Shown in pieces: positions 1,873 through 19,523 of a stretch of 33,236 bases of DNA. Under the pieces are notes generated by a model that did not search any database, had not been told where the DNA came from, and worked only from the letters and a program-made list of their open reading frames with translations. A program made the translations under genes and the position numbers. Origin of the DNA: Oscillospiraceae bacterium (lineage in GTDB: Bacteria; Bacillota; Clostridia; Oscillospirales; Ruminococcaceae); assembly GCA_029267825.1 (NCBI GenBank), contig JAJUHO010000007.1:1-33236 (forward strand), in the 5' to 3' direction. Position 1 is the first letter of the stretch. Each line of letters opens with the position of its first letter.

Positions 1873-1874
1873 AA

Positions 1875-3047: not shown

Positions 3048-3085
3048 TAAACAAGGCTTTTTCAAAATAATTTTCCTCCCACTTT

Positions 3086-3126
3086 CAAAAACCCCTCCCC
3101 GCACAAACCGCGGGGAGGGGTTTTTT
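3086..3126. terminator. Bidirectional intrinsic terminator between mmsB and the GH38 gene
   Basis: An 11-bp, all-GC-rich perfect stem (3092-3102 with 3110-3120, 7-nt loop) is flanked by a T6 run at 3121-3126 on the + side and an A-run at 3087-3091, which is a T5 run for the - strand. It can end both the mms operon and the convergent mannosidase transcript. Confidence 0.92.
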
Positions 3127-3128
3127 AT

Positions 3129-3158
3129 GCCCCCTGAAAGCTTTTGCTTTCAGGGGGC
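3129..3158. repeat. Second perfect hairpin beside the terminator
   Basis: A 13-bp perfect stem (3129-3141 with 3146-3158) is closed by a TTTT tetraloop. It begins 2 nt after the terminator's T-run and ends 8 nt before the GH38 stop codon. No T-run follows on either strand, so it is not a terminator by itself. It would form the very 3' end of the - strand glycosidase message and may protect it from exonucleases (inference). Confidence 0.7.
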
Positions 3159-3166
3159 TCAAGGTT

Positions 3167-6100
3167 TTATTCGGCAAACGTCACTTTATAGGTTTTTATT
3201 TCATATGGTTTTATAATGTCTTCAAAACTTGTTGCTTCTGCCTTAATTTCTTTAATTTCATTTTCAAGCAAATCGCATTCATATACAGAATTTACATTGC
3301 TTTCAAACAAAACATGCATTTTTGTTTTGGCATTTTCGCATTCATACATCCTTATTATGACTCCGCTGCCGTCCTCTGCACACTTAACAGTTTCAATCAT
3401 TACATTTTTCTTATCTGTACTTACAAATGAAAAAGGTTTTTCAATAGTTCCTTTTAATGCATATGCAGGTTGGTTGATTTTTGCTGCTTCACGTACAACA
3501 TCACCATCGCGCCAACCTCCCTTATGCGGATAAATAGAGTATGTAAAGAAATGTTCTTCTTGGTCGGCAACCGGATTTGGCAGTATGCCGGATTTAATAA
3601 GCGTAAGCGCAATATTCCCATCTTTTACTGAGTATCCGTATTTGCAATCATTTAAAAGGCTAAAGCCATATCCGCCTTCTGACAAGTCTGCCCATTTATG
3701 GCCGCATACCTCAAATCTTGCCATATCCCAGCTTGTATTTGTATGTGTTTTTCTTGTCAAATTACCAAACTGGATATCAAAAGTTGCCTCATCAGTATGA
3801 ACATCAACCGGGAAATGAACTTTTAACAAGTGCTGATGTTCTTTCCAATCAACATATGTGCAAAAATCTATTCTTCTTGAATTTGCATAAAAATAAATTT
3901 TTTGTTTTATAACAGATTTGCTGAACTTTCTTTCAATTTCAAGAGTTGCCCTTACCGGTCCTTTTTCAGTCCATTCCATTCGCATAAGGTCTTCGACATC
4001 CCAAAACTTTTCGGAATAAAAGATGTCTATATCCCAGTTGTCATAATCAACCGGCTTATCCTCATATACCCGCATCAAATTTCCGCGCTGATTTTCTTTT
4101 ATGACCTCACGTTCATTTTCTTTGTCATAAATGGAGGAAATCATTCCCAATTTATCAAAATCAACAACATAAAAAGGTGTTTCTATTCTGCTGCCGGAAA
4201 TCTTAAAGGGATTTTCCGCATTTGCTTTTTGAATTATAGAAAATGTTTTTCCACCTTTTGAAGGTACCTTTTCAAGATATGCTACGGCACCAGTTTCAGT
4301 TTGCTGAACAGGATAAATCTTGCCCATTTCATCGGCAAGTGCGGCGGCCTTAACTTCTCCCAAATTTACTATATCGTTTCTTTCAAATCCAAGAGTATTA
4401 TATACCGTCACAGCGTCACCGGGCTGTGTCAAGGCTTTCACACGCTCACTAATTAAGCTTGAACCGGTTTTGCTTATTTCTTCATATTCTTTTTTTGTCA
4501 CATCATATACTTCTTTTATTGAAGAACCGGGAAGTATGTCATGAAATTGATTGAGCAAAACAACTTTCCAAATTCGTTCAATTTCGGAATGAGGATAAGA
4601 AATGCCCTTATTTTGAGCCAAAACAGAAAACAACTCCAAATCCATAAGCATCAGTTCGCTCTTACGGTTTGAACGTTTATTCCTCGCCATTGACGTATAT
4701 GTTCCACGGTGATATTCAAAGTAAAATTCCCCTTCCCATACAGGAAGTCTTTTATTATCTTTTACTCGTTTTTCAAGCTTTTTAAAATATTCTCCGGCAA
4801 ATTCCTGACGTACTTTTGGAATTCCTTTTATTCCTTTTTCCATTCGAACCGACGTTTCAAGCATTTCTCTTGTCGGTCCTCCACCGCCGTCGCCATAGCC
4901 GTAAGAAATTAAAATATCATTATTTATCTCTTTGTTTTGATATCTTTGCCATGCACCCATTATCGAATCAGGATGAAGCATTCCGTTATAAGTAGTAAAA
5001 AAGTTATTTACATCCTGACCAACTCCCAATGTCGTAATCATATGCGTAAAGATTTCCGTTCCGTCAATTCCTCTCCACATCATTGTATCATAAGGCACTT
5101 TATTGAATTGATTCCAAGACAGCTTGGTTGTCATAAAATATTCTATGCCACATTTTTTCATTATCTGGGGCAATGCTCCTGAATAACCAAATACATCGGG
5201 CAGCCATAAAATTTTGCTGTCAACCCCAAATTCTTCTTTAAAAAATCTTTTTCCATACATAAATTGACGTACAAGCGATTCTCCGGAAGTCAGGTTGCAA
5301 TCGGCTTCAACCCACATTCCGCCTTCCGCCTCCCAGCGGCCTTCTTTTACACGTTTCTTTATTTCATCAAAAAGCTTAGGATATCTCTCTTTCAAAAAAA
5401 CATAAAGCTGCGGCTGGCTTGATATAAACTTATAATTCGGATATTCTTCCATCAATTTAAGTACTGTTGAAAAACTTCTTGCAACCTTTTCACGCGTCTG
5501 CGCAACCGTCCACCACCAAGCAACATCAATATGGGTATGCCCTATGCACGCGGCTGTGACCTCATCAAATCCTGCCATATCCTCATATAATGCTTTCTTT
5601 ATATAAGAGCTTGCTTTTGAAACAGACTCATAAAATTCCTCTGAATATTCATTGCGCAAATCAAGAAGATTTACAGTATTATTTATAACTGTCTGCAAAT
5701 CAAGGCGAATTTTTGAATCTTCATCCATACGGCTGAACGCTTCCAAAGGAACCTTTAAATCATAATATAAATCCAAAATTTTAGAATCAAATTCAACTGC
5801 TTCAACAATTAAATTGAATTCGGAATGATTTATTCCGCTATACGCCTGCAAATCAATTTCATATTGTCTGCCTGCCTGCGCAAATTCTGCTATAAAAACC
5901 TCCCTATGGTTCATATCAATTCCCTGAACGGGTTTTTTATCAACAAAAAGCAAAAATTGGGGATTTCTTGCATCATCCCATTCGTCAATTTGCGTTCTTA
6001 TAACCAGCCAAAGCGGTTTTTTATCAAAAGTTTCAGGTACTTCAAAAATTGTTTTAAACCAATAATGCCTGTCCTTGCCATACCAGTGCATATTTTTTCC

Positions 6101-6253
6101 ATCAAAATCAAGCCATTCACCTTTTTGCGCTTCATCAGGTGTTAAAAAAAGTCCTTCTTTGTACTTCCACTTTGAAATTTCAATGCTTTGTTTTTTGGAA
6201 AGCATTTTTAATTCTTCACATATTTTTTTTGCACGCCTATCGAGTAGTTTCAT
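3167..6253 (-). CDS. GH38 alpha-mannosidase, cytoplasmic
   Basis: A 1028-residue enzyme of glycoside hydrolase family 38 that removes alpha-mannose from oligosaccharides such as N-glycan antennae. It has no signal peptide. The N-terminal 230 residues are a beta-rich region. The catalytic domain has HTHIDVAW (239-246; zinc ligands H241 and D243), WEAEGGMWVEAD near 308-318, and LPDVFGYSG (351-359) with the nucleophile candidate D353. A YGYGDGGGGPT loop further on is typical of bacterial and Ams1-like GH38 enzymes. The length fits the class II (Ams1/MAN2C1-like) group. ATG at 6253 is preferred: AGGCGG lies 11 nt upstream, though a TTG six bases earlier (5-nt spacing) cannot be excluded. It is the last gene of unit A, 27 nt after the GH130 stop. 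The exact linkage preference is not readable from sequence. Confidence 0.93.
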   Translation of the reverse strand: MKLLDRRAKKICEELKMLSKKQSIEISKWKYKEGLFLTPDEAQKGEWLDFDGKNMHWYGKDRHYWFKTIFEVPETFDKKPLWLVIRTQIDEWDDARNPQFLLFVDKKPVQGIDMNHREVFIAEFAQAGRQYEIDLQAYSGINHSEFNLIVEAVEFDSKILDLYYDLKVPLEAFSRMDEDSKIRLDLQTVINNTVNLLDLRNEYSEEFYESVSKASSYIKKALYEDMAGFDEVTAACIGHTHIDVAWWWTVAQTREKVARSFSTVLKLMEEYPNYKFISSQPQLYVFLKERYPKLFDEIKKRVKEGRWEAEGGMWVEADCNLTSGESLVRQFMYGKRFFKEEFGVDSKILWLPDVFGYSGALPQIMKKCGIEYFMTTKLSWNQFNKVPYDTMMWRGIDGTEIFTHMITTLGVGQDVNNFFTTYNGMLHPDSIMGAWQRYQNKEINNDILISYGYGDGGGGPTREMLETSVRMEKGIKGIPKVRQEFAGEYFKKLEKRVKDNKRLPVWEGEFYFEYHRGTYTSMARNKRSNRKSELMLMDLELFSVLAQNKGISYPHSEIERIWKVVLLNQFHDILPGSSIKEVYDVTKKEYEEISKTGSSLISERVKALTQPGDAVTVYNTLGFERNDIVNLGEVKAAALADEMGKIYPVQQTETGAVAYLEKVPSKGGKTFSIIQKANAENPFKISGSRIETPFYVVDFDKLGMISSIYDKENEREVIKENQRGNLMRVYEDKPVDYDNWDIDIFYSEKFWDVEDLMRMEWTEKGPVRATLEIERKFSKSVIKQKIYFYANSRRIDFCTYVDWKEHQHLLKVHFPVDVHTDEATFDIQFGNLTRKTHTNTSWDMARFEVCGHKWADLSEGGYGFSLLNDCKYGYSVKDGNIALTLIKSGILPNPVADQEEHFFTYSIYPHKGGWRDGDVVREAAKINQPAYALKGTIEKPFSFVSTDKKNVMIETVKCAEDGSGVIIRMYECENAKTKMHVLFESNVNSVYECDLLENEIKEIKAEATSFEDIIKPYEIKTYKVTFAE

Positions 6254-6280
6254 CGCCAACGCAACCGCCTTTCAAATAAA

Positions 6281-7270
6281 TTACAACGAATTTTCCTTTG
6301 TGTACTTAACAAGTTCATCTACGGTAGTAAAAGCAAGGCCGGTAACCGTATCTGCGCAACCATAATAAATTGCAATTCTTCCCGTATCAGCATCAGAAAT
6401 TGCTGCGCATGGAAATACTACATTTGGAACATCCCCAACACGCTCATACAATTCTTCCGGCGCCAAAATATAATTTTTTGTCCGGTATTTTACTTTCCAC
6501 GGTTCATCAATGTCAAGTATGGCACTGCCTATACGATATACCATTCCGTTGCACGTTGTCAATACCCCATGGTATATCAGCAGCCAACCTTCATCAGTTT
6601 CTATCGGTATAGGCCCTGCACCTATTTTTGTAGATTGCCATGCAGAAGCATCCCCTCTGTATGTCCCCATTACAAATCTATGCCTGCCCCAGTGTTCAAG
6701 GTCGGGACTTTGGCTGTAAAAAATATCTCCAAATGGCGTGTGTCCGGTATCGCTTGGTCGGCTAAGCATTGCAAAATTCCCGTTTATTTTGCGCGGAAAA
6801 AGCACTCCATTCCTATTATAAGGCAAAAACGCATTCTCGCATTGTATAAATGTTTTAAAATCAAAAGTATATCCAACACCTATTGTCGGACCATGATACC
6901 CATTGCACCATGTTATGTAATATCTATCCTCAATAAAGCAAACTCGCGGGTCATAGCGGTACTCCCTTTTTAAAATTTCAGGATCTGCACCTTCAAATTT
7001 AATTGGTTCATGCTGTATTTCCCAGTTCACTCCATCTTTGCTGAAACCTGCATAAATATCCATGCTTACCGCTTTGCTGTCGCAGCGAAAAATCCCCGCA
7101 TACCCATCTCCAAAAGGAACTACTGCACTGTTGAATATGCTATTTGAGCTTGGTATCCCGTCTTTATTTATTATGGGATTTCCTTTATACCTCCAAACAG
7201 GCCCCTTATATCCAAGCGGTTTTTCTTCCCAAGGCATGTTCTTTATTGCTTCACCTATTATTTTTGCCAT
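6281..7270 (-). CDS. GH130 beta-mannoside phosphorylase (probably Man-beta-1,4-GlcNAc type)
   Basis: A 329-residue five-bladed propeller enzyme that uses phosphate to split a terminal beta-mannoside, releasing mannose 1-phosphate. Family marks are [16 protein letters not shown] (44-59), YDPRV (106-110, catalytic Asp 107), [50 protein letters not shown] and FPCAA. The short length and these stretches resemble, from memory, the GH130_2 subgroup that includes gut enzymes acting on Man-beta-1,4-GlcNAc, rather than the longer GH130_1 mannosyl-glucose phosphorylases. The neighbouring GH38 gene supports an N-glycan substrate, but mannooligosaccharide phosphorylase is the main alternative. It has no signal peptide. 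The start has AAGGAG a few bases upstream. A stem-loop precedes it, separating it from the transporter genes. Confidence 0.9.
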
Positions 7271-7362: not shown

Positions 7363-8847
7363 TTATTTTTTATTTGCCAGAAAAGCATCTACTTGCTTTT
7401 GGGCCTCATCCAAAACATCTTGGAATCCTGCGGACATAAGCTCTTTTTTAATTTCCGGAACAGCTTGAGCCGGATCAAGAACACCTGTCAAAATTTCGCT
7501 CTTATATCTGAGCCAGATTTCCAAGCAGTTTGCAAGCTGATCCTTTAAATTAGAATAATCAAAAGTAAATCCAAGCAAAACAGAAGCTTTTGCGTTTTCA
7601 TTAAGTTTCTTTACTTCTTCCCACTGATTTACTTCATCACTTGCAAGCTGTGATACGGTAAAGAACGTTCCTTGAGTATATCCGGCCATAGTCCAATCCT
7701 GATTTAATTTGTTTACTTTATTATCGGATGTATACTCAAAGTTTACGCCTTCTTCACCATAATAAAACATATCTCTAACCTTAGGATCCATATTTACGAT
7801 ATTTAAAAATTCAAGGCATTTTTCAGGATATTTGGTATTTGCCGAAACCATATTCAAAGAACCACGCACAGTATCATTTGATACGATTGTATCCCCAACT
7901 TGTGCGACAACAACATCTTTGCCCATTTGAGGTCCCCAAACCGTTTTTGCGGCAGACGGCCAGCCCTGAGCCACTCTCCATACGTTATAAACCCTTCCCT
8001 CGCTTAATGTAGCTGCGTCAGGATTTATAATGCCTTTTTGATACCATTCATGAATAGTTTGCAACTGTGAATAAATATCATCCTGTTCAAGAGTAAAGCA
8101 AACTTTTGCATTTTTATCATCATAACGTACGCCTAAAACTTGAAGCCCCGCACCAAGCTGATCATATACGTCAAAAATATAATAAAGTCCGTCGTTTTTA
8201 ACATATACCGGATAATCCGATTTGTCTTTTTTAATTTTTTCAAAAGTTTCAGTTAAAGATTGAAGCGTGGTTAAAGAATTGATGTCAAGCTTATACTCAT
8301 CAACTATTTCTTTATCCCAAACGGCATAATTCGACAAGGAACTATCTTTGTAAGTAGGTACCGCATAAATTTTGCCGCCAACCGATACTGCATCCCAATA
8401 CTGCGACGGAAGATAACTATAAAAATCAGGCATTGAGGTTTTTACAAGATTTGTTATGTCGTAATAAGCGCCAAGGTTAATATCTGATATGTAGTTGTTT
8501 GAGTTTCCAAAAATAATATCATAATTCTCATTTGTATTGATAATGATACTTCTTCTATTGTCCCATTCTCCCCATGGAACAATTTCCATTTCTATATTTA
8601 CTCCGATTTTTTTGCCCAAGTATTCATTTAATTTTTTTGCCCAAGAATCATAATTGCTGGGCATGCCGCTTCCCACGGTAACCCATTTTAATGTTACAAT
8701 TTCATCAGATGAACTTTGACTTGAACTTTCAGACCCCTGTGCCGACGACGAACCATCAGAAGATGCTTCTGCCTTTCCGCATCCTGCAAACAATCCGGCA
8801 GACATTACACCCGCCAAACATAATGCCAAATACTTTTTAAACTTCAT
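7363..8847 (-). CDS. Oligosaccharide-binding lipoprotein, LplA-like (unit A)
   Basis: A 494-residue extracellular solute-binding protein. The N-terminus is a lipoprotein signal peptide: basic MKFKK, a hydrophobic core, then LFAGC with the lipidated Cys at 23. A Ser-rich linker (about 29-48) follows. The body is a family 1 sugar-binding fold, and the C-terminal part (from about residue 340, including NVNMDPKVRD-like and NARKASVLLGF-like segments: here IVNMDPKVRD and NENAKASVLLGF) resembles the DUF3502 region of LplA-type receptors. It should capture an oligosaccharide at the outer membrane-face and pass it to the two permeases encoded just upstream. AGGAGG stands 8 nt before the ATG. It is the third gene of unit A; an attenuator-like hairpin follows. 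The ligand is inferred to be a mannose-containing glycan from the enzymes downstream. Confidence 0.9.
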   Translation of the reverse strand: MKFKKYLALCLAGVMSAGLFAGCGKAEASSDGSSSAQGSESSSQSSSDEIVTLKWVTVGSGMPSNYDSWAKKLNEYLGKKIGVNIEMEIVPWGEWDNRRSIIINTNENYDIIFGNSNNYISDINLGAYYDITNLVKTSMPDFYSYLPSQYWDAVSVGGKIYAVPTYKDSSLSNYAVWDKEIVDEYKLDINSLTTLQSLTETFEKIKKDKSDYPVYVKNDGLYYIFDVYDQLGAGLQVLGVRYDDKNAKVCFTLEQDDIYSQLQTIHEWYQKGIINPDAATLSEGRVYNVWRVAQGWPSAAKTVWGPQMGKDVVVAQVGDTIVSNDTVRGSLNMVSANTKYPEKCLEFLNIVNMDPKVRDMFYYGEEGVNFEYTSDNKVNKLNQDWTMAGYTQGTFFTVSQLASDEVNQWEEVKKLNENAKASVLLGFTFDYSNLKDQLANCLEIWLRYKSEILTGVLDPAQAVPEIKKELMSAGFQDVLDEAQKQVDAFLANKK

Positions 8848-8923: not shown

Positions 8924-9835
8924 TTAACCTTTTACCGCTCCAATTGTCAAGCCAGAAATAAAATACCTCTGAAAGAAAGGATAAACCAATGCAATCGGTA
9001 TAATAATTACAATTGCTATTGCCATGCGCACGCTTTCGGTTGGCATGCTTGCCTTGTACATTTGCATGGAAAGCCCTCCGTAAGGATTATTGGCAAGGTA
9101 TTCAATATTTGACTGAACAAGGTTAAGCATCGCTTGAAGTGATTGAAGTTTTTTATCGGTAATATAAAGCGATGATTGGAACCAGTCGTTCCAATATCCA
9201 AAAGCCGCAAACAATCCTATCGTTGCAAGAATTGGTTTTGACAACGGGAGCACAATTCTGCCAAAAATCACAAGCTGACTGGCTCCATCTATTTTAGCCG
9301 ATTCTATAATTGAATCCGGAATGGTGGTTCTGAAAAAAGTTTTGCAAATAACCACATTAAACGAAGACAATGCAAGAGGAAGAATTAAAGCCCACACAGT
9401 GTTTCTCAAATGCAGTATATTTGCGTTTACCACATAACCAGACAACATTCCTCCGTTAAAAATCATAGGTATAAATACAACCCATGTAAAAAAATTCTTT
9501 AATTTATAAACCGGCCTTGATAAAACATACCCCATTAAAGTTGTCAGCATAACGGAGATGACCGTTCCTGCCGCCGTAACAAAAATCGATATAAATGCCG
9601 CCTGAAGGATGGTTTTTCTTTCATTCCATAAAAAAACGTACGCTGAATTCGACAGTATTTTAGGAATAATTTGATAACCGTATTTTTGAATGCTCTGCTC
9701 ATCCGAAATGGAAATTGAAAAAACAAAAACGACCGGAAAAATGCATATAAAAGACAATATAATAAATAAAATATTAAATAATATATTTGTCGAATTTTTT
9801 ATTTGATTAAGATTTTTGATTTTTTTCGCTGCCAT
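8924..9835 (-). CDS. Carbohydrate ABC permease, LplC/YtcP-like (unit A)
   Basis: A 303-residue membrane protein of the MalG-like BPD_transp_1 class with about six membrane segments, the first at residues 17-38. The conserved EAA loop is at about 180-205 (ESAKIDGASQLVIFGRIVLPL), which docks on the ATPase. The C-terminus, ISGLTIGAVKG, is the usual ending of YtcP/LplC permeases. It partners the LplB-like permease encoded 14 nt upstream and the binding protein 76 nt downstream. No ATPase gene is present in the unit, so it presumably uses a shared MsmX-type ATPase. The start is ATG at 9835 with a GAGG ribosome site. Confidence 0.9.
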   Translation of the reverse strand: MAAKKIKNLNQIKNSTNILFNILFIILSFICIFPVVFVFSISISDEQSIQKYGYQIIPKILSNSAYVFLWNERKTILQAAFISIFVTAAGTVISVMLTTLMGYVLSRPVYKLKNFFTWVVFIPMIFNGGMLSGYVVNANILHLRNTVWALILPLALSSFNVVICKTFFRTTIPDSIIESAKIDGASQLVIFGRIVLPLSKPILATIGLFAAFGYWNDWFQSSLYITDKKLQSLQAMLNLVQSNIEYLANNPYGGLSMQMYKASMPTESVRMAIAIVIIIPIALVYPFFQRYFISGLTIGAVKG

Positions 9836-9849
9836 CTTTTTTACCTCAT

Positions 9850-10833
9850 TTAAATAATGGTATTTTCATTATCAATTTTACTTACAAGCCAGTTTGCCAA
9901 AAGAATCGTTATGCAGCAAGCTATCGATTGGAAAAATGAAGCCGCGGCAGCCCTTCCTATTGAAGCCTGGGTTTGTATTGCATTGTATATGTAAGTATCG
10001 AAAGTAGATACGGTTGAATACAACGACTGTGGTATATGCGCAGGGATTTGATAAAACAATCCGAAGTCAGAATAAAATATCTTGCCGGTATCTAAAATCA
10101 GCATCATTACAATAATAGGTTTAAGGCATGGCAACGTAATAAATTTTGCCTGCTGCCATTTGCTTGCCCCATCAATTATCGCAGCTTCATATAGGCTATA
10201 ATCAATTCCTGTAATACTTGCCAAATAAATAACCATTCCATAGCCCATGCCTTTCCATATTCTCATAAATGTTAAAATAAACGGCCAATACTTGGGCTCC
10301 TGATACCACATAATTTTCTCCCCGCCCAAAAGCGTAATGATTCCATTCAAATAGCCTTTTTCGGGTGACAATACTGCGTAAACAAAATATGCTACAACAA
10401 CCCATGACATAAAGTAAGGAAAAAACATTATTGTTTGATATGCTTTTGATGCAAATTTGCTGTGCAGGTTGCTAATCATCATAGCAAATCCAACCGCCAC
10501 AATAACTCCAAGAATAATAAAAACAATATTATACAAAATTGTGTTTCTTAAAAGCATTGTAAAAGCATTTGAAAATATGAAATATTTAAAATTATCAAAT
10601 CCAACCCAATTGCTTTTAAAAAGACTATACACAAAGCCGTGTCCCGGAGAAATTTTATAATTTTTAAAAGCAATTATAATTCCAAACATCGGCAAATAGG
10701 CAAATAACAGATACCATATAAAGCTTGGAATCGCAAGAATTGTAAGTTCAGTATCATCCATTGTCCATTTTTTAATTTTTGTTTTTAACTTAAAGTGATT
10801 ATTTTCTTTACTTTTGTTAAAAATCCTTTTCAT
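9850..10833 (-). CDS. Carbohydrate ABC permease, LplB/YteP-like (unit A)
   Basis: A 327-residue MalF-like permease, first gene of unit A. A charged N-terminus of about 30 residues precedes the first membrane segment (IPSFIWYLLFAYLPMFGIIIAF). The family stretch GFDNFKYF follows. The EAA loop is YEAAIIDGASKWQQAKFITLP (about residues 215-235), and GLFYQIPAHIPQSL lies in a later loop. About six membrane segments are present. It forms a heterodimer with the LplC-like permease encoded next. It is transcribed from a strong promoter at 10896-10868, with a leader of only about 28 nt and an AAGGGG ribosome site. Confidence 0.9.
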   Translation of the reverse strand: MKRIFNKSKENNHFKLKTKIKKWTMDDTELTILAIPSFIWYLLFAYLPMFGIIIAFKNYKISPGHGFVYSLFKSNWVGFDNFKYFIFSNAFTMLLRNTILYNIVFIILGVIVAVGFAMMISNLHSKFASKAYQTIMFFPYFMSWVVVAYFVYAVLSPEKGYLNGIITLLGGEKIMWYQEPKYWPFILTFMRIWKGMGYGMVIYLASITGIDYSLYEAAIIDGASKWQQAKFITLPCLKPIIVMMLILDTGKIFYSDFGLFYQIPAHIPQSLYSTVSTFDTYIYNAIQTQASIGRAAAASFFQSIACCITILLANWLVSKIDNENTII

Positions 10834-10867: not shown

Positions 10868-10896
10868 ATTTTAATTCTATTTTTTGCTTTTGTCAA
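10868..10896 (-). promoter_or_regulatory. Promoter of unit A (permease-binding protein-GH130-GH38)
   Basis: On the - strand a perfect -35 TTGACA (10896-10891), a 17-bp spacer and a -10 TAAAAT (10873-10868) are seen. Transcription would start near 10861, giving a short leader before the ATG at 10833. The 366-bp region to the divergent regulator at 11200 is very AT-rich and holds no gene. Confidence 0.75.
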
Positions 10897-11199: not shown

Positions 11200-12243
11200 A
11201 TGAAAAAGGTAACTATGCAAACTATTGCAGATGCTTTAAATATCTCAAGAGTTTCCGTATGGAAAGTTTTAAACAATCAACCGGGAGTATCTGATAACCT
11301 TAGGGCTGCTATTATTGCAACCGCAAACGAACTTGGTTATTTTACTGAAAAACAAACCCCGACAAACAATTCATATAAAAACACATCAATGCCTACTGTG
11401 TCTGTTGTGGTTTCAAGGCCGGATTCCGCTTCTTTTTGGATGAAAATCATTCATAAAATAGCAGAAGACTTTACAAATTTAGGATATAACCTTTTATATA
11501 CATATCTGCCGTCAACTTATACTCAAGGCTACACACTTCCTCAAAATTTAATTAACGGAAGCATAGACGGAATTATAATATTAAACGTTTATGACCAGGA
11601 TATGTTAAGGTTAATCAGTTCAACCAATATTCCAAAAGTGTTTTTGGATATCTCTCCAAAAACCAAGTTTGAAAACCTTAATGGTGATTTGTTTTTGCTG
11701 GAAGGAGAAAGAACAATTTACCAAATTACCGAATCCATTATAAATAACGGCTGCAAAAAAATCGGATTTATAGGGGATATTTATTACTCAAAAACAAACG
11801 AAGAAAGATACCGCGGATATTTAAATGCTTTAAAGGCACACAATATATCACATGATTCAACAATTTGCTTTACAAAAAGTTTGGGAATCACAGATTATAA
11901 AAATGAAATCAAAGAATTTTTAGATTCAGTTGCTAAAATGCCGGATGCTTTCGTTTGCGTAAATGACCACATAGCCAAAGTGGTTTACGATTATTTTACT
12001 AAGAATAATTATGATATACCTACCCAATTATTATTAAGCGGCTACGATGGAGTTTTGGAATACTTTAATGACTCAAAATTTTTAACCACCGCAGAAGTCG
12101 ATACAAAACAGTTGGGGTGCCGCTTAGCAAACCAATTAGTATATAGAGTAAAATATCCAAACGCTCCTTACGAAATAACACATATTACTCCTAAAATTCG
12201 CTATGGAATATCAACAATGCCATCAAAAAATATCGCCAAATAA
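11200..12243 (+). CDS. LacI-type transcription regulator 1
   Basis: A 347-residue regulator. The N-terminal LacI helix-turn-helix covers residues 3-45 (MQTIADALNISRVSVWKVLN), with SRVSVWKV as recognition helix. The usual hinge motif (proline-asparagine then alanine-arginine-leucine) is missing; instead a Ser/Thr/Asn-rich linker runs from about 50 to 68. A periplasmic-binding-protein-like effector domain follows (VSVVVSRPDSASFWMK, FLDISP, KKIGFIGDIYYSK, DAFVCVNDHIAK, LLLSGYDG, LTTAEVDTKQLG). It is divergent from unit A and most likely controls it, with an intracellular glycan breakdown product as effector (inference). It closely resembles the second regulator at 12292 in length and effector-domain motifs. 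AAGGAA precedes the ATG. Confidence 0.9.
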   Translation: MKKVTMQTIADALNISRVSVWKVLNNQPGVSDNLRAAIIATANELGYFTEKQTPTNNSYKNTSMPTVSVVVSRPDSASFWMKIIHKIAEDFTNLGYNLLYTYLPSTYTQGYTLPQNLINGSIDGIIILNVYDQDMLRLISSTNIPKVFLDISPKTKFENLNGDLFLLEGERTIYQITESIINNGCKKIGFIGDIYYSKTNEERYRGYLNALKAHNISHDSTICFTKSLGITDYKNEIKEFLDSVAKMPDAFVCVNDHIAKVVYDYFTKNNYDIPTQLLLSGYDGVLEYFNDSKFLTTAEVDTKQLGCRLANQLVYRVKYPNAPYEITHITPKIRYGISTMPSKNIAK

Positions 12244-12291: not shown

Positions 12292-13335
12292 TTAAAAATC
12301 AGTTGATTTTTTAAAGCATACCTTTGAATTGATTTTTATAATTTCATAATCTGATTCCGGATTTCCTATCCTATAAAGGAGCTGGGCAACAAGCCGTTTG
12401 CCAAGCAAATCTTTTTGCACATCTACTGTTGTCAAAAAGGAATCCTCCATTAAAATTTCCCTATTATTGTCATATCCGGATACAGCTATATCCTCAGGAA
12501 TTCTATATCCTTTTTGATTTAAAATTGAAATTAAAATATAAGCTATATAATCACTTGCGCATACAAAAGCCTGAGGAAGACATTTAAGCTGAGATATGAA
12601 TTTTTCTATATTGCCACGATAATTTTCAATTTCAAACCCGGATGTAAAACAAAAATTTTTGTTGATTGAAAGATTGTTTTTTTCCATCGCAAGGCAAAAA
12701 CCTTTCCAGCGTGTATAATTTGATATTGCATAATCAATATCCCCTATAAATCCTATTTCAGTCCTGCCCCTTTTTATAATACTGTCAGTAATTTCATACA
12801 CGCTGTCCTTTCCGTCAAGAATTATCATGTCGCCATTCATTTCCCTGAAAGGAACTTTATTTACACCATCCATAAAAACCTTTGGGATTTCACTTTCAGA
12901 TAAAATTTTAATGACTCTTTCGTCATAAGCATTTATTATAATCATGCCCTGAACATCGCCGTTTTTAATTACCTGAGGCATTTTGAAGCTTGCAAAATCT
13001 TCAAGCATTAAATTTATATAAATGCAATGCAAATCATGCTTGCTTAATTCCGCTGAAATCTGATTTAAAATTTTCATCCAAAAAACTGATGTTTCCGGAC
13101 GAGCCGCAATTACTGCAATATTTGAAACTTTTATTCCTCCATCCTCTTTTTTATCCATTAAAATATTATCCCGTTTAATGGCATCAGCAATGTTATATTT
13201 TAATTCGGAAGCCTTTTGAAGAATTTTCTCTCTTGTTGCTTCCGATACTCCTTTTTGACCATTCATAACCTTCCAAACGGTTACGCGTGATACTCCTGCC
13301 TCGTCGGCAATATCTTGAATGGTTACTTTTTTCAT
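12292..13335 (-). CDS. LacI-type transcription regulator 2
   Basis: A 347-residue sister of regulator 1. The helix-turn-helix is at 3-45 (IQDIADEAGVSRVTVWKVMNG), followed by a linker rich in charged residues without the standard hinge sequence. The effector domain has VIAARPETSVFWMK, VFMDGV, TEIGFIGDIDYA, QAFVCASDYIAY, AVSGYDNN and LTTVDVQKDLLG, parallel to regulator 1. The start is set at ATG 13335, where GAGGGAG lies about 7 nt upstream and the product begins MKKVTIQ like its sister. A TTG seven codons earlier is less likely. It lies downstream of the GH20 gene with a 160-nt gap holding its own promoter, and probably controls unit B and the divergent fucosidase (inference). Confidence 0.9.
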   Translation of the reverse strand: MKKVTIQDIADEAGVSRVTVWKVMNGQKGVSEATREKILQKASELKYNIADAIKRDNILMDKKEDGGIKVSNIAVIAARPETSVFWMKILNQISAELSKHDLHCIYINLMLEDFASFKMPQVIKNGDVQGMIIINAYDERVIKILSESEIPKVFMDGVNKVPFREMNGDMIILDGKDSVYEITDSIIKRGRTEIGFIGDIDYAISNYTRWKGFCLAMEKNNLSINKNFCFTSGFEIENYRGNIEKFISQLKCLPQAFVCASDYIAYILISILNQKGYRIPEDIAVSGYDNNREILMEDSFLTTVDVQKDLLGKRLVAQLLYRIGNPESDYEIIKINSKVCFKKSTDF

Positions 13336-13419
13336 TTTCTGCTCCCTCTGCACCAATACAATGCAACAAAAATTAAGCTCTTATTATGCAAATCAATTTT
13401 TACCATTTTGTCTGTTCAA

Positions 13420-13495: not shown

Positions 13496-15346
13496 TTACA
13501 AACTCCTTAACAAGTCAGCATACCAAAATATTACGTCTTGAATTCTAAATAATTCACCCTCTTTGCTGTGTTCCCTCCAAATATTTTTATAATCATTCCA
13601 CCAATATTCAAGAGCGACAGCAGTTTCTTTTGGGGTTGAAGTCAATATTTCATTCCCATTAAACATACTATTTTTAATAATCGCACCTATGTTGTTAAAA
13701 ATGGCAACGGCTTTTGCCATTATAAGATATTCTTTTACCAATTCCCTTTTTGAAGTTTCCATTGAAATTATTATTCCATACAGGCGTTCCGTTAAGGAAA
13801 AAATTTTTTGGTTAGCCTCAAATACATTTTCAATTCTAATATTATTAAAATACTTCTTTATTTCTTCGTCCGGCATTTTTTTAACATAAGCCTCCATATA
13901 TTGGACTGCATTTTCCCAAGTAAAAAGCTGCCTTTTAGCTATTGACGAAATTATATCGACAAATGATTCAGTTTTATCTCCATACGCCAAAACAGAAATC
14001 ATTTTATTGATGTTTTCATATTCAATCTGTTCTTTATTCCATGAAAAAGCAGCTCCATAAATCATTCCCGCCACAGAGCATCTTGCAAAATTTATATGGC
14101 CATAATCTCCCCAATCAGTATTTAAAATCCCCACCGCATTGTATTTAAAGGCATAATTGCACATCCTGCTGATATTTTGATATGCGTAATCATTCCTATT
14201 TAAAAATTGCCTCCATCCATGCACACCAGGGCACAAATATTGCAGTGCACCTGTTTTGCTTATTTCATAAGAATTCTTTTCACTCTCATTGGCAGAATAG
14301 CCCCAGTTAAGGCAAATGATATCCTCCGGAAGGTCTTTTATAAGTTCTGGATTTTCAATAATAACATCCCCCCAAAACATTGGCTGCCTGCCCTGCTCCT
14401 TTACAACTGAGCAGATTTTATTTACAAAATCAACATAAACACGATGTAGTCCTTCTTTTTCAGTCATTTTTCTGCTCTTGCCTTTTCCCAAATCAAAAGT
14501 TTCATCAGCACATATATTAAACTTTTTTGATGAAAACAAAGGCATAAATTCCAAAAGCATTTTCTTAATCATCTCAAAACTTTCGGGATTGGACACGTCA
14601 ATAGTATGATGAATCATTCTATCAACAAAAGTAAACGGCTCATTTTGATTCCAATTTAATTCACAAAGATGGGAATAAGTTTTTGTTGAAAGCACCTTAT
14701 GCAAATGCCCAAAACTTGCTATGGCCGGCACAAGCTCTATATTTAAACTTTGGCAATATTCGTCAAATTCCATTATTTCTTCAGCACTCAAAGGCGTGTC
14801 ATCTCTCCACACCTCGCTAAAATCCTTAAATAAAAAACTATGCTCGATATAAAGCTGCATTTGATTTATTTTATAATAACTCAAATTATCAGCAATCTGT
14901 TTTAATGTTTTTAATGTCGGAATTCTTCCTCTTGTAACATCATGAAGAAAGCCTCTTTCCAAAATATCCGGATAATCTTCAATATCAAAACAAGGAATTA
15001 CAGGCCCATATTGATTTATAATTTGTCTGAATGTTTGTACACCATAAAGTAGCCCTTCTGTATCTCCGCCAATAATATGCACATGGTTTTCATTGACATT
15101 TATTTTATAGCATTGTTCTTTTAAATCTTTATTTATTTGCAAGAAAATGCTGTTTTTTTCAGCTTTATTTGATTTTATTATCGGAAGGTCAAACGAAATA
15201 ATTTTTTGTATATCTGTTTTAATCAATTTTGCATAATTAAATTCCTTGCAAGAACTTCCTTCAAAAATTATTAGCTCGGTATCGTATTTTATTATAAAAA
15301 ATCCTTCATCAATTTTCATTTTATGCGGCATAGGAAGCAAATACAT
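13496..15346 (-). CDS. GH20 beta-N-acetylhexosaminidase, cytoplasmic
   Basis: A 616-residue exo-enzyme that removes terminal beta-GlcNAc or GalNAc by substrate-assisted catalysis. An N-terminal GH20b-type domain occupies about 1-120 (VHIIGGDTEGLLYGVQTFRQI). The barrel begins at PDILERGFLHDVTRGRIP. Catalytic Asp-Glu pair D281-E282 lies in NICADETFDLGKGKS. WGD and a tryptophan-rich end (LNTDWGDYGH) are also seen. A helical C-terminal region runs from about 450. The ADETFDLGKG form resembles broad-specificity GH20 enzymes such as pneumococcal GH20C (from memory). No signal peptide is present, unlike secreted hexosaminidases. ATG at 15346 is chosen because AAGGGG lies 9 nt upstream; the TTG two codons earlier is too close. 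It follows the B-type fucosidase by 32 nt. Confidence 0.92.
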   Translation of the reverse strand: MYLLPMPHKMKIDEGFFIIKYDTELIIFEGSSCKEFNYAKLIKTDIQKIISFDLPIIKSNKAEKNSIFLQINKDLKEQCYKINVNENHVHIIGGDTEGLLYGVQTFRQIINQYGPVIPCFDIEDYPDILERGFLHDVTRGRIPTLKTLKQIADNLSYYKINQMQLYIEHSFLFKDFSEVWRDDTPLSAEEIMEFDEYCQSLNIELVPAIASFGHLHKVLSTKTYSHLCELNWNQNEPFTFVDRMIHHTIDVSNPESFEMIKKMLLEFMPLFSSKKFNICADETFDLGKGKSRKMTEKEGLHRVYVDFVNKICSVVKEQGRQPMFWGDVIIENPELIKDLPEDIICLNWGYSANESEKNSYEISKTGALQYLCPGVHGWRQFLNRNDYAYQNISRMCNYAFKYNAVGILNTDWGDYGHINFARCSVAGMIYGAAFSWNKEQIEYENINKMISVLAYGDKTESFVDIISSIAKRQLFTWENAVQYMEAYVKKMPDEEIKKYFNNIRIENVFEANQKIFSLTERLYGIIISMETSKRELVKEYLIMAKAVAIFNNIGAIIKNSMFNGNEILTSTPKETAVALEYWWNDYKNIWREHSKEGELFRIQDVIFWYADLLRSL

Positions 15347-15378
15347 AAACAAAAGCCCCTTTCGTTATAATTATAGTT

Positions 15379-16785
15379 TTAATAAATGCCTAAAAATTTT
15401 AATGTCGGGCATTTTCTTGATTCTTTTATATGAATTTCAATTTTTTTGGTGTGAATTTTTCCAAGTTTACATATCTTTTTATAACCAACAGTTAAAGCGG
15501 AATAAACTTTTTCAAATTTTCCTTCTATATCTGCCCATATCTCAAATCTTTCTATCCTTTGGCTGCATTTTATTTGCTCTTGCAATATAATCCATTTCAA
15601 TGTTTGCGCGCAAGGAAATTCAATTTTTATACTACATTCTTCACAATAATCCTCAGCTTTCCAATAAGATTCATCTTCTTTCAAAACATTTTCAACAGGA
15701 AAACCTTGCTGATGAGAAGAAGCAAAAATACTGGCCTTTGAATTCAATAAATTTTTTGAAAATTCTTCAGAAATAAACTTTCCAATCTCTTCAAGACGTG
15801 CTGCATCATACCGTGTAATATATCCGTCAGGATGCGGAGGAATATTCAAAAGCATAACCCCATTTCCCCCAACTGAATTTAAATAAATATCAATCAAATT
15901 TTCCAACGAACGAATTTTATCATCTTCTGATTTATGATAAAACCAACCTGGCCTTATTGAAACATTAATTTCAGCCGGATACCATATTAATTTTTTTTCT
16001 TTTTTAACCACTTTACGGCTTCCTAAGTCTTTTTCATCAGGTTCAAGTCTTTTTTGCCTAAAAACAGCATCGTCTTCTTTTTGTGATTTTTCAGCTGTTT
16101 TAATATTTGAAAACAATTTTGCAGGAACAACGCTCCACTCAGCTTGTCTGCATTCTCCGGCTTCATTTCCACACCAGCGCACATCAGGTCCAGAAATAGA
16201 AATTACCGCATTAGGCTGAAAATCGCGTATAATTTTATAATATCTTTCCCAATCGTATTCCTGTTTTTTCCCATTCTCCCCCTCTCCACACGCCCCGTCA
16301 AACCAAACAGAATAAATTTCTCCGTAATTTGTCATTAGTTCTGACAACTGTCCACAAAAAAAATCATCATATGCCTTCCCTTGGCCATATGTTTTCTCAT
16401 GCCTATCCCATGGAGAAAGATAAATGCCTAATTTTAAATCATATTTAACACATGACTGAGCCAATTCCGAAACAATATCCCTTTTAAAACTGGTATGCAT
16501 TACAGAATAATCCGTATATCCAGTATTCCAAAGACAAAAGCCATCATGATGCTTTGCAGTTATTATGCAAGCCCTTATGCCTGCTTTTTTTATGCTTTCG
16601 CACCATTGATCAGTATCAAGATTTTTAGGATGAAAAATAGAAATATCTTCTGTACCTGTTCCCCATTCACAATCAGTAAAACTATTTATGCCGTAATGAA
16701 AAAAAGCACAAAATTCTAATCTCTGCCACTCAATTTGTCTATTATGTGGAACAATAGACACCAGTTTATCGACAGATAGTTCCAT
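15379..16785 (-). CDS. GH29 alpha-L-fucosidase, B-type (alpha-1,3/4), cytoplasmic
   Basis: A 468-residue fucosidase. The catalytic barrel shows FFHYGINSFTD, TAKHHDGFCLW (77-86), SPWDRHE and VWFDGACGEG with nucleophile candidate D163. The stretch SGPDVRWCGNEAGECRQAEW (199-217, with E208 as acid/base candidate) is typical of the B subfamily, which prefers alpha-1,3/1,4-linked fucose. From about residue 345 a beta-rich C-terminal domain resembles the F5/8 discoidin-like module of GH29-B enzymes. It has no signal peptide. The start is ATG 16785, with GAGGAG about 10 nt upstream. A frame extending to 16887 would add 34 residues starting MRRLGFLRLRR, but these are translated from an intergenic hairpin and are rejected. 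It is the first enzyme gene after the unit B binding protein. Confidence 0.92.
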   Translation of the reverse strand: MELSVDKLVSIVPHNRQIEWQRLEFCAFFHYGINSFTDCEWGTGTEDISIFHPKNLDTDQWCESIKKAGIRACIITAKHHDGFCLWNTGYTDYSVMHTSFKRDIVSELAQSCVKYDLKLGIYLSPWDRHEKTYGQGKAYDDFFCGQLSELMTNYGEIYSVWFDGACGEGENGKKQEYDWERYYKIIRDFQPNAVISISGPDVRWCGNEAGECRQAEWSVVPAKLFSNIKTAEKSQKEDDAVFRQKRLEPDEKDLGSRKVVKKEKKLIWYPAEINVSIRPGWFYHKSEDDKIRSLENLIDIYLNSVGGNGVMLLNIPPHPDGYITRYDAARLEEIGKFISEEFSKNLLNSKASIFASSHQQGFPVENVLKEDESYWKAEDYCEECSIKIEFPCAQTLKWIILQEQIKCSQRIERFEIWADIEGKFEKVYSALTVGYKKICKLGKIHTKKIEIHIKESRKCPTLKFLGIY

Positions 16786-16849
16786 TTTAATCTTTTCTCC
16801 TCTTAAATTATTTTTAAAATATAGCCATACGGAAATCCAGATATTTGGC

Positions 16850-16887
16850 ATGCGGCGCCTTAGCCTTAAAAAACCAAGACGCCGCAT
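16850..16887 (-). promoter_or_regulatory. Intergenic stem-loop after the unit B binding-protein gene
   Basis: An 8-bp GC-rich stem (16850-16857 with 16880-16887) continues after one mismatch into 3 more pairs. It begins 24 nt past the binding-protein stop and has no following T-run on the - strand. It matches in position the stem-loops at 246-275 and 7323-7353 and probably stabilises the upstream message (inference). Confidence 0.65.
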
Positions 16888-16911: not shown

Positions 16912-18525
16912 TTATTGTGTTATGCTGTTTTGTCTTATTTTAATTAAATCCTGCAATCCAAGTTTGTCAAGCTGTGCACAATAATTGCTCCATTCTTCTT
17001 CAACATTTGCCTGACCTGTAATCCATTGCGCTTGTTTTTGTTGAATATAATCCTTTATGGCAGTGGAAATGTCCGCATACGTTGTAGCATCCTCAGCTTT
17101 AACCCAAGCAATCGGTATCGGGCCTACCAAAGAAGACTGCAAAACCTTATCGGCAGCACCCTTTTCATCATATGTCGGATTATCCTGCTGAACTTTAAAA
17201 TCAAGAGGGAAGAAGTGCGGAAGCGATTGAGCCCACATATTTGACCAGCTATATTTTTCTTTGTCCTCAGCACTTAATTCTGACTCCGGAACAGCTTTAT
17301 AACCGCCATCAGAAGTTTTATTGATTTTTATTCCAATAGGTCCCCACTGGCTCTGAAGAGAATTTTCCAATTTAAAGAAATTATCCCACCAACGGCAAAT
17401 CAATTCAGGATTTTTTGCATTATCTGTTATAACCACTTGTGTATTGAAAACAGTGCTGCCCTGAGTATTTGCAAGAAATACCGGCTTGCTGCAAGACGGA
17501 CTTGAAAGAACTGGCAAAGCGACAAAATCAGGAGCCTTAGAGTTGTCATATTCCTTAAAGTCGCCGCTGCCATATGCTATGCTGCAACCATAAAGATCTT
17601 TCGCTCCCTTTGCTTTCCACTGAGAAAGATCCTGCGTAAACAGTTCGGGATCAATCAAACCTTGTGAGTACAAATTTGCCATCCATTTTATAAATTCCTT
17701 ATAATTGTCAGTATTTGCCCCAAAAGTAAGTTTTCCGTCAACCATTGTAAATCCGTCATCGGCAAGAGACATTCCAAAATATCCTGCCATATACCCTAAA
17801 TGCTTATTATTTGGGTCAGCTGAAAACGGTATTTCATCTGCTTTTCCATTACCGTTTGGATCTTTTGTTTTAAAAGCTTTCAGAACTTCTTCAAATTCTT
17901 CTGTTGTTTTAGGCAGTGAAAGTCCTAATTTTTTAAGCCATGCTTCATTTATAAAAGGCTCAAAATCCACAAGGGGAGCATTAAGAACATAGGGAATAGA
18001 ATAAATATGTCCGTCCGGAGCGGTCATAGCCTGCTTTACTCCCGGAATTTCAAGAATTTCCATAATTTGAGGGCAATATTCTTTAAAGTAATCTTCAAGC
18101 GGAATGTATACTTTTTGGTCCACACCATAAGTCAATATGTCATTTTGAGTTAAACACCACCCTCCAATGCAATCAGCATAAGTACCTGAATTAAGTGCCA
18201 ATTGAAGTTTTTCCTTTGCCACTTCATAAGGATAACGCTGAACATTTACCTTAATTCCTGTCTGCTTTTCCAAATAAGGGAACATCCATTCATCACTTGT
18301 ATTGCTGTCATCCACAAACAATGTAAAACTATAGCTTCCTTCCGGACTGACAATAGGATTTGTATTTTCTTTTGGCCCGGATGAAGCATCAGATGACGAA
18401 TTTAAATTCTCTGCAGACGAATCGGCAGATGATTTTTCATCCACGCCGGATTTTGAACAGCCTGCAAAAGCCGTCAACACAAAGCTGATGCTTATTATAC
18501 CAGCAACTACTTTCTTGAACTTCAT
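16912..18525 (-). CDS. Oligosaccharide-binding lipoprotein, YtcQ/LplA-like (unit B)
   Basis: A 537-residue extracellular sugar receptor. The signal peptide MKFKKVVAGIISISFVLTAFAGC ends in a lipobox with Cys 23 lipidated. A Ser/Glu/Asp-rich linker runs to about 60. A calcium-loop-like DPNGNGKADEIP (222-233) is typical of large YtcQ-type receptors. A Gln-rich C-terminus (YIQQKQAQWITGQANVEEEW) ends with a helix. It is larger than and different from the unit A receptor, so it probably binds another, perhaps larger or fucosylated, glycan. AGGAGG is 7 nt before the ATG. It follows the LplC-like permease gene by about 70 nt and precedes the fucosidase and hexosaminidase genes. Confidence 0.9.
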   Translation of the reverse strand: MKFKKVVAGIISISFVLTAFAGCSKSGVDEKSSADSSAENLNSSSDASSGPKENTNPIVSPEGSYSFTLFVDDSNTSDEWMFPYLEKQTGIKVNVQRYPYEVAKEKLQLALNSGTYADCIGGWCLTQNDILTYGVDQKVYIPLEDYFKEYCPQIMEILEIPGVKQAMTAPDGHIYSIPYVLNAPLVDFEPFINEAWLKKLGLSLPKTTEEFEEVLKAFKTKDPNGNGKADEIPFSADPNNKHLGYMAGYFGMSLADDGFTMVDGKLTFGANTDNYKEFIKWMANLYSQGLIDPELFTQDLSQWKAKGAKDLYGCSIAYGSGDFKEYDNSKAPDFVALPVLSSPSCSKPVFLANTQGSTVFNTQVVITDNAKNPELICRWWDNFFKLENSLQSQWGPIGIKINKTSDGGYKAVPESELSAEDKEKYSWSNMWAQSLPHFFPLDFKVQQDNPTYDEKGAADKVLQSSLVGPIPIAWVKAEDATTYADISTAIKDYIQQKQAQWITGQANVEEEWSNYCAQLDKLGLQDLIKIRQNSITQ

Positions 18526-18570
18526 AACAATTCCTCCTCAATATTTATATAATAAGCTCAAAACAAACCC

Positions 18571-18596
18571 ATCCGTTTTGAAAATGTTAAACGGAT
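18571..18596 (-). repeat. Small hairpin between permease and binding-protein genes of unit B
   Basis: Perfect 8-bp arms (18571-18578 and 18589-18596) enclose a 10-nt loop. The structure begins at the last base of the permease stop and has no T-run. It could mark a processing point that frees the 5' end of the binding-protein message; this is a guess. Confidence 0.45.
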
Positions 18597-19510
18597 TACC
18601 CTTTGAGAGAGCCTATCATAACCCCCTTAACAAAATACTTTTGAATCAAAGGATACAGCATGATGACAGGCAAACTGGAAACTATGATAAGTGAATATTT
18701 CATCAGCTCAACTACTTCCTGCTGTCTTTTTTGTTCCAGCAATTCCTGTGGATTAACCGCTGTATGCTTTTGCAAAGCAACAGAATTTTGAATCAATATG
18801 GAACGCAGTACCAACTGCAAAGGAAATTTTTCCTTTGTCGAAATATATATTAGCGCTGAAAAATATGAGTTCCATTGACCAACACCATACCATAATACCA
18901 AAATTGCAATAATTGCGCTTGAAAGAGGCAACACAATAGTAAAAAAGAATCTTGTATTGCTGCATCCGTCCAGTTTAGCTGCCTCCAAAAGTTCATTAGG
19001 GATACTGGTTTTAAAAAAAGTTCTTGCAACAATCATATTATAGGCGCTTAAAGCCCCCGGAAGCACCAAAGCCCATACCGAATCAAGCAGTCCGCAATTT
19101 TTTACTACCAAATAAGTGGGAACCATTCCACCGCTGACAAACATGGTAATTAAATAAAATATTGTCACAAATTTTTTGCCATAAAAATCAGAACGTGATA
19201 AAGCATAAGCCGTGGGCAATGTAACAACCAAACTGATAGCAGTTCCAACTATGGTATATATAACCGAATTTATAAATCCATAAACAACCTCAGTATTTTT
19301 AAATACAACTTTATATCCGTCAAAATTAACCCCAACAGGCAACAAAATAACCTCGCCTCCGGCAACGGCTTCAGGGTTGCTAAAAGAAGAAATTACAACA
19401 AAATAAAGAGGATATGCTACGCATAAAAACACAATAGTTAAAATAACAAAAATAACGGCATCATAAATTTTATCGTTTTTTGACCGTTTAATTGCTTTTG
19501 CTGCTGCCAT
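18596..19510 (-). CDS. Carbohydrate ABC permease, LplC/YtcP-like (unit B)
   Basis: A 304-residue MalG-like permease with about six membrane segments. The EAA loop is LLEAAKLDGCSNTRFFFTIVLP, and the C-terminus, VKGVMIGSLKG, is the usual YtcP ending. A charged stretch, PQELLEQKRQQEVVE, precedes the last segment. ATG 19510 is chosen over ATG 19516: AGGTGA is 7 nt before the former and only 1 nt before the latter, and the product then starts MAAAKAIK, like MAAKKIK of the unit A paralogue. It partners the LplB-like permease 13 nt upstream. No ATPase is encoded nearby. Confidence 0.9.
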   Translation of the reverse strand: MAAAKAIKRSKNDKIYDAVIFVILTIVFLCVAYPLYFVVISSFSNPEAVAGGEVILLPVGVNFDGYKVVFKNTEVVYGFINSVIYTIVGTAISLVVTLPTAYALSRSDFYGKKFVTIFYLITMFVSGGMVPTYLVVKNCGLLDSVWALVLPGALSAYNMIVARTFFKTSIPNELLEAAKLDGCSNTRFFFTIVLPLSSAIIAILVLWYGVGQWNSYFSALIYISTKEKFPLQLVLRSILIQNSVALQKHTAVNPQELLEQKRQQEVVELMKYSLIIVSSLPVIMLYPLIQKYFVKGVMIGSLKG

Positions 19511-19523
19511 ATTCATCTCACCT

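Follow-up and report, generated by a model that had tools for sequence, protein, structure and literature searches.

A predicted phosphorolytic N-glycan-core operon pairing GH130_2 with GH38 in an Oscillospiraceae genome

In the literature consulted, the N-glycan locus of Gram-positive bacteria whose core-cleaving enzyme is proven ends in hydrolysis, by GH5_18 in Cutibacterium acnes, and a GH38/GH5_18 pair is also described in bifidobacteria (PMC6160142). In Bacteroides thetaiotaomicron, high-mannose N-glycans are handled by GH92 alpha-mannosidases (PMC10154615), and mannose 1-phosphate (Man1P) reaches fructose 6-phosphate by a mutase and an isomerase without ATP (PMC4264767). Subfamily GH130_2 includes the phosphorylases BT1033 and UhgbMP, acting on mannosyl-N-acetylglucosamine (Man-GlcNAc), and the mannooligosaccharide phosphorylase RaMP2 (PMC8950772, PMC4264767). 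TM1225, also in GH130_2, is listed as a beta-1,4-mannooligosaccharide phosphorylase (PMC8950772). Here, we analysed a window of 33,236 nucleotides from an Oscillospiraceae bacterium (contig JAJUHO010000007.1), in which a GH130 gene and a GH38 alpha-mannosidase gene share a minus-strand operon. Judging from sequence, this operon is probably a phosphorolytic N-glycan-core utilisation unit. An earlier note on this DNA had proposed that alpha-mannoses are removed first and that Man-beta-1,4-GlcNAc is then phosphorolysed. Support for this prediction comes from the phylogeny, the neighbouring genes, the importer and the signature residues, which, together with a separate mannan paralog set, are the reasons why Man-beta-1,4-GlcNAc is favoured as the GH130 substrate.

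The unit (10833-3167) is an operon of at least five genes, transcribed in the order permease, permease, solute-binding protein (SBP), GH130 and GH38 (Table 1). The proposed GH130 and GH38 pair was recovered as open reading frames (ORFs) exactly at 6281-7270 and 3167-6259. Its description as a mannosidase followed by a phosphorylase is right along the coordinates and wrong for transcription, in which GH130 precedes GH38 with a spacing of 21 bp.

Among solved structures, the window GH130 matched UhgbMP (542 bits, 70% identity), RaMP2 (487 bits, 64%) and TM1225 (461 bits, 61%), the remaining matches not exceeding 125.4 bits. Placement in GH130_1 was checked, and the structures of that subfamily scored 96 and 79 bits. 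By these similarities, the protein is assigned to GH130_2, as the earlier note had suggested, with UhgbMP as its nearest solved structure. Its Tyr106-Asp107 pair is invariant with UhgbMP, RaMP2 and TM1225 and aligns to the catalytic Tyr103-Asp104 of UhgbMP, in line with the rule that Tyr precedes the catalytic Asp in GH130_2, Glu standing there in GH130_NC (PMC4264767). Arg153, Lys161, Arg171, Lys215 and others, candidates for the three phosphate-binding basic residues expected in GH130_2, are invariant in five aligned GH130_2 sequences. Subfamily membership alone leaves the substrate undecided, because RaMP2 and TM1225 also belong to GH130_2; we therefore dropped it as proof of Man-GlcNAc specificity. 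A finer criterion is given by 13 columns that separate the clade of the window GH130 (window clade) from the TM1225 side, defined on rows that include the window GH130, TM1225 and a paralog from contig C138 of the same genome and exclude UhgbMP and RaMP2. The window-clade state is present at all 13 columns in the window GH130, at 11 in UhgbMP, 7 in RaMP2, 1 in TM1225 and 0 in the C138 paralog.

For the phylogeny, a scan of genome contigs confirmed at least 584 relatives among 594 stretches, and the best 80 by similarity to the window GH130 were kept. A survey of the order found a GH130 match in 49 of 147 genomes and supplied 30 regions (best match >200 bits, the window's own genome excluded). 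The full tree has 117 rows including references; the two sets overlap in one contig (L024 = L097), and BT1033 is not among the rows. A bootstrapped tree of 62 rows recovered the TM1225/epimerase side with 14 rows (support 100/100), the RaMP2 clade with 6 (100/100) and the UhgbMP Bacteroidia with 9 (99/91). The window GH130 falls in a further clade of 25 rows (99/99), made of 22 window-clade rows and 3 Flavobacteriia. The approximately unbiased (AU) test strongly rejected joining the window GH130 to the six epimerase-linked rows (delta lnL 110, p 1.9e-9) and weakly rejected joining it to the RaMP2 clade (p 0.03). Both results argue against a first alternative, namely that the window enzyme is a RaMP2-like beta-1,4-mannooligosaccharide phosphorylase for plant mannan salvage and that its adjacency to GH38 is incidental, a reading to which the identity and the seven signature states shared with RaMP2 lend support. 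Within GH130_2, RaMP2 and the relatives L113, L114, L100, L102 and L105 from the survey of the order group on the same side as UhgbMP.

Gene neighbourhoods were compared within a radius of 10 kb, using as markers queries from the window's own genome plus GH92, so that more distant families are undetectable. The window clade comprises 57 distinct loci, the window counted, 30 of which are flanked by 9 kb or more on each side. GH38 was found at 30 of the 57 loci (19 of 30 with full flanks, 11 of 27 with shorter ones), an NgtS-like SBP at 18, a GH20 homolog (>300 bits) at 11, a LacI homolog (>200 bits) at 8, GH29a at 2 and the epimerase at none. On the TM1225 side (13 loci), the epimerase was found at 6 loci, GH130_1 at 4, GH36 at 2 and GH38 at none, while 6 loci lack both alpha-mannosidase and mannan markers; the two groups differ for GH38 (Fisher test, p 3e-4) and for the epimerase (p 1e-5), kinship being uncorrected. 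The remaining 22 loci include one with GH38 and one with the epimerase, and GH92 was near the gene in 7 of 7 Flavobacteriia of the wider 65-row clade. When the presence of GH38 within 6.5 kb was mapped on the tree, 14 changes were counted against a shuffled mean of 25.0, and none of 500 shuffles was as low. Since the window GH38 is moreover the sole PF01074 match in the whole genome, its pairing with GH130 goes beyond chance.

The layout itself also recurs. Among the 56 other distinct window-clade loci, GH38 comes immediately downstream in the same orientation in 15, the SBP directly precedes GH130_2 in 12, and the whole five-gene order with tight spacing is found in 5 (L023, L032, L037, L038 and L052). 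In five Paenibacillus loci (L013, L019, L020, L022 and L025), GH38 is upstream of GH130_2, and a distant second GH38-like match (55-67 bits) lies just downstream. For 23 window-clade loci without a close GH38, 71 of the 119 listed ORFs were scanned with Pfam, and the 25 of 91 families that were listed include GH3 twice and GH125, GH35, GH2 and GH32 once each; of 25 genomes or records with loci of this kind, 20 carry a GH38 somewhere. No marker query matched within 10 kb of the five loci of the RaMP2 clade. Pfam matches for 10 ORFs near these loci were phosphomannomutase-like (two), GH94, FeoB, pyruvate kinase, AMP-binding, leucine-rich repeat and sigma-region (two), with one ORF unmatched. A mannan role for the RaMP2 clade is thus not backed by the neighbourhood examined.

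The rest of the genome (2.14 Mb in 228 contigs, 96.7% complete) allows a comparison of paralogs. Contig C138 (L119:597-4935) encodes a second GH130_2, a member of the N-acylglucosamine 2-epimerase family, a GH130_1 and the N-terminal domain of a GH36. Together these could make up a set for the salvage of galactoglucomannan, and a GH26 is encoded on contig C33. The organism therefore probably uses mannan, a point in favour of the mannan alternative for the window enzyme. However, the genome already holds a mannan-type GH130_2 next to an epimerase, and the window clade is often accompanied by GH38 and never by the epimerase in the neighbourhoods counted above, so that we regard this alternative as improbable. 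The earlier note had relied on the lack of GH26, GH113 and an epimerase; this holds among the annotated ORFs of the window, but GH26 and an epimerase are present on other contigs, and GH113 was not searched as a family. With mannan enzymes elsewhere in the genome, the argument from absence becomes one from paralogs: the two GH130_2 genes of the genome differ in their neighbourhoods, which suggests a division of labour. This weighs against a second alternative, partly compatible with the N-glycan reading, in which the enzyme is a generalist beta-1,4-mannosidic phosphorylase acting on the N-glycan core and on mannooligosaccharides. Side activity within GH130_2 is real, since BT1033 yields some longer products with more than one mannose on GlcNAc-type acceptors (PMC10619541), and a generalist enzyme, although rather unlikely, is the alternative to which we give most weight.

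The importer points in the same direction as the GH130. At E <=0.01, the SBP matched three PDB sequences, 5swa (with 5swb), 5suo and 5mlt (E 2e-51 to 1e-50); of these, 5swa and 5suo are NgtS. NgtS has been crystallised with Man1GlcNAc and Man5GlcNAc, with the reducing-end GlcNAc buried and Trp386 stacking onto Man-GlcNAc (PMC5215778). NgtS Trp81 is kept in the window SBP, and the position of Trp386 is occupied by Tyr in this protein and in 18 aligned homologs (>300 bits). The likeness to NgtS is suggestive of an N-glycan ligand.

The GH38 has all the expected domains, N-terminal, middle and C-terminal (PF01074, PF09261, PF07748 and PF17677, all above cut-off), and its PDB matches include Ams1 (6lz1, E 3e-148) and 7ufr (E 1e-125). 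GH38 members in other bacteria act on other alpha-mannose compounds. A third alternative is accordingly that the operon serves such compounds, for example mannosylglycerate or yeast alpha-mannan (for yeast mannan, PMC10154615), and not N-glycans. The protein does match the NCBIfam model of mannosylglycerate hydrolase (MngB, NF007331), but with 162.6 bits for a cut-off of 1138, and such a pathway has no evident use for an NgtS-like SBP, a GH20 or a phosphorylase of beta-1,4-mannosides. We consider this alternative very improbable.

Under the favoured N-glycan reading, a soluble fragment of an N-glycan, bearing a single GlcNAc at its reducing end, would be freed extracellularly by an enzyme of the endo-beta-N-acetylglucosaminidase type, probably by other organisms. 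The NgtS-like lipoprotein would bind this fragment and the two permeases would import it. No signal peptide was seen by eye in the GH130, GH38, GH20 and GH29 proteins, and a cytoplasmic location is therefore expected for all of them. In the cytoplasm, GH20 and GH29 of the neighbouring operon would strip antennal GlcNAc and fucose, GH38 would take off the alpha-mannoses, leaving Man-beta-1,4-GlcNAc, and GH130_2 would phosphorolyse this disaccharide to GlcNAc and alpha-mannose 1-phosphate. As no GH125 was found in the genome, GH38 would need to cleave alpha-1,3 and alpha-1,6 linkages alone; the C. acnes locus likewise has a GH38 of the Ams1 type. Man1P could then be channelled to fructose 6-phosphate by a mutase and an isomerase; the genome has 3 mutase-family matches and 1 mannose-6-phosphate isomerase match. 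The ATP saving through Man1P put forward in the earlier note would apply to the one beta-mannose, which amounts to one ATP per glycan. This saving would be modest, as the alpha-mannoses freed by GH38 are not recovered in this form and would still need a kinase.

Several observations weigh against this reading. Searches for GH85, GH125 and DUF4838, the last of which we take to be a marker of GH163 endoglycosidases, found none in this fragmented, 96.7% complete assembly, and no endo-beta-N-acetylglucosaminidase of its own was found there. In the window clade, 27 of 57 loci lack both alpha-mannosidase and mannan markers in the available sequence; 16 of these have less than 9 kb on one side, and 11 have full flanks. 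GH92 lies within 10 kb in just 2 of 8 UhgbMP-side Bacteroidia and is also near 1 of 13 TM1225-side loci, a side on which only 4 of 12 loci have full flanks (the genome's own excluded). Identity between the SBP and NgtS is only about 30%, with Tyr in place of Trp386, and NgtS as best match is weak evidence because few SBP members have solved structures. RaMP2, reported as a mannooligosaccharide phosphorylase (PMC8950772), is on the window enzyme's own side of the GH130_2 split, with more than half of the signature states. Finally, a position of the window GH130 beside the whole TM1225-side branch was not rejected (AU p 0.235); such a placement would still keep it outside the mannan clade.

Three GH18 matches, one of them above cut-off and all partial, were found on contigs C186, C194 and C76. 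They were dropped as candidate endoglycosidases, their sequences resembling YaaH-type spore enzymes by eye. The ends of C194 and C76 (L122, L124) carry pieces of apparently one GH18-like lipoprotein gene with a common stretch, through an assembly break or a near-duplicate.

Table 1. Annotated features of the operon and of the adjoining genes in the 33,236-nucleotide window
Feature	Coordinates	Strand	Basis
Probable operon terminator, strong hairpin 3' of the GH38 stop	3080..3140	-	Fold -34.9 kcal/mol, z -5.2
GH38 alpha-mannosidase, Ams1-like, presumably cytoplasmic	3167..6259	-	1,030 aa; four GH38 Pfam domains above cut-off
GH130	6281..7270	-	329 aa; PF04041 248.6 bits; UhgbMP 4udg E 3e-162
NgtS-like lipoprotein SBP, DUF3502 C-terminal domain	7363..8847	-	PF12010; PDB matches; lipobox-like LFAGC read from sequence
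ATP-binding cassette (ABC) sugar permease, second	8924..9835	-	ORF; PF00528 28.1 bits
ABC sugar permease, first operon gene	9850..10833	-	ORF; PF00528 40.5 bits; same-place homologs in L023, L032, L037, L038, L052
Promoter-like TTGACA-17-TAAAAT upstream of first permease	10868..10896	-	11/12 consensus matches
LacI-family regulator, divergent from operon	11200..12243	+	PF00356 28.3 bits (cut-off 27); PF13377
Second LacI-family regulator, probable last gene of adjoining operon	12292..13356	-	PF00356 50.8 bits
GH20 beta-N-acetylhexosaminidase-like, predicted antennal GlcNAc trimming	13496..15352	-	PF00728, PF02838 above cut-off; PDB matches weak, <=55.1 bits
GH29 alpha-L-fucosidase, resembling alpha-1,3/4-fucosidase 3mo4	15379..16887	-	PF01120; 3mo4 E 1e-138
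Second ABC importer	16912..20462	-	Binding protein 16912-18525; permeases 18596-19516, 19524-20462; PDB relatives 5g5y, AlgQ2
Second GH29 alpha-L-fucosidase	20815..22206	+	PF01120 293 bits; 6gn6 E 2e-56

The hairpin behind GH38 is absent from the 4 terminator-like sites listed by the consensus scan. The promoter scan returned three sites of the 11/12 type in the stretch and 29 sites in total, against 31.1 expected in shuffles; as this count is no higher than in shuffles, only its position supports the site upstream of the first permease. A search for operators found no convincing common palindrome in the AT-rich intergenic regions. The minus-strand block 20462-12292 appears as another importer operon that includes GH29 and GH20 genes, for which complex N-glycan antennae, mucin and milk-type sugars are candidate substrates. 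At the other end (337-3047, plus strand), the genes for an ABC ATPase of the sugar type and for a BPD_transp_2 permease are convergent with GH38; no adjoining binding protein was seen, and the window begins at the contig end.

Taken singly, the steps of the proposed pathway are known from other bacteria; combined as here, they seem to form a separate variant, found again in many Bacillota. No description of a GH38-GH130_2 operon in Bacillota was found in the open-access literature searched. For specialists, the operon is sensible rather than surprising. Its interest is that a conserved operon ending in phosphorolysis provides a sequence rule (operon partners plus the 13 columns) separating N-glycan GH130_2 from mannan GH130_2, where family models such as Pfam PF04041 label both types beta-1,4-mannooligosaccharide phosphorylase; the paralog pair within one genome is a ready test pair. 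More broadly, we tentatively propose that a phosphorolytic N-glycan-core pathway (NgtS-type importer, GH130_2, GH38 and often GH20) may be a widespread standard in Bacillota, from Lachnospiraceae and Oscillospiraceae to Paenibacillus, that the two GH130_2 of this genome may split the N-glycan core and plant mannan between them, and that the mannan assignment of enzymes like RaMP2, which lie on the N-glycan side, may derive from test-tube activity alone.

Compared with known systems, the window enzyme shares with BT1033 and UhgbMP the subfamily, the catalytic Tyr-Asp pair and the predicted substrate (PMC8950772, PMC10619541, PMC4264767); those enzymes originate from Bacteroides and from an uncultured bacterium of the gut, whereas in the window GH130_2 is combined with GH38 and an ABC importer, in a genome of the Clostridia type. 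The mannan loci of Roseburia intestinalis and Faecalibacterium prausnitzii (PMC6385246, PMC8262883) also place GH130_2 in Bacillota, in R. intestinalis together with a binding protein, permeases and LacI. Their partners, however, are an epimerase, GH130_1, GH36 and GH113 (plus GH26 in R. intestinalis), and the similar epimerase-GH130_1-GH36 group of the present genome is on C138 and not in the window. Streptococcus pneumoniae, with NgtS-P1-P2 and a GH38/GH125/GH92/GH20C/GH29 locus (PMC5215778), has in common an NgtS-type SBP, two permeases, GH38, GH20 and GH29. It differs in having GH125 and EndoD, an importer apart from the enzyme locus and no GH130 in the gene table of that source, while in our genome GH125 and GH85 were not found and importer, GH130 and GH38 form one operon. 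In the GH38/GH5_18/GH20 locus of C. acnes (PMC6160142), genes for an ABC importer and a regulator likewise lie close to those for a cytoplasmic GH38 of the Ams1 type, a GH20 and an enzyme that cleaves beta-mannosides. There, Man-beta-1,4-GlcNAc is cleaved by the GH5_18 hydrolase, whereas the window has a GH130_2 phosphorylase of an unrelated family. Among known layouts, that of C. acnes is the closest, with the hydrolase swapped for a phosphorylase.

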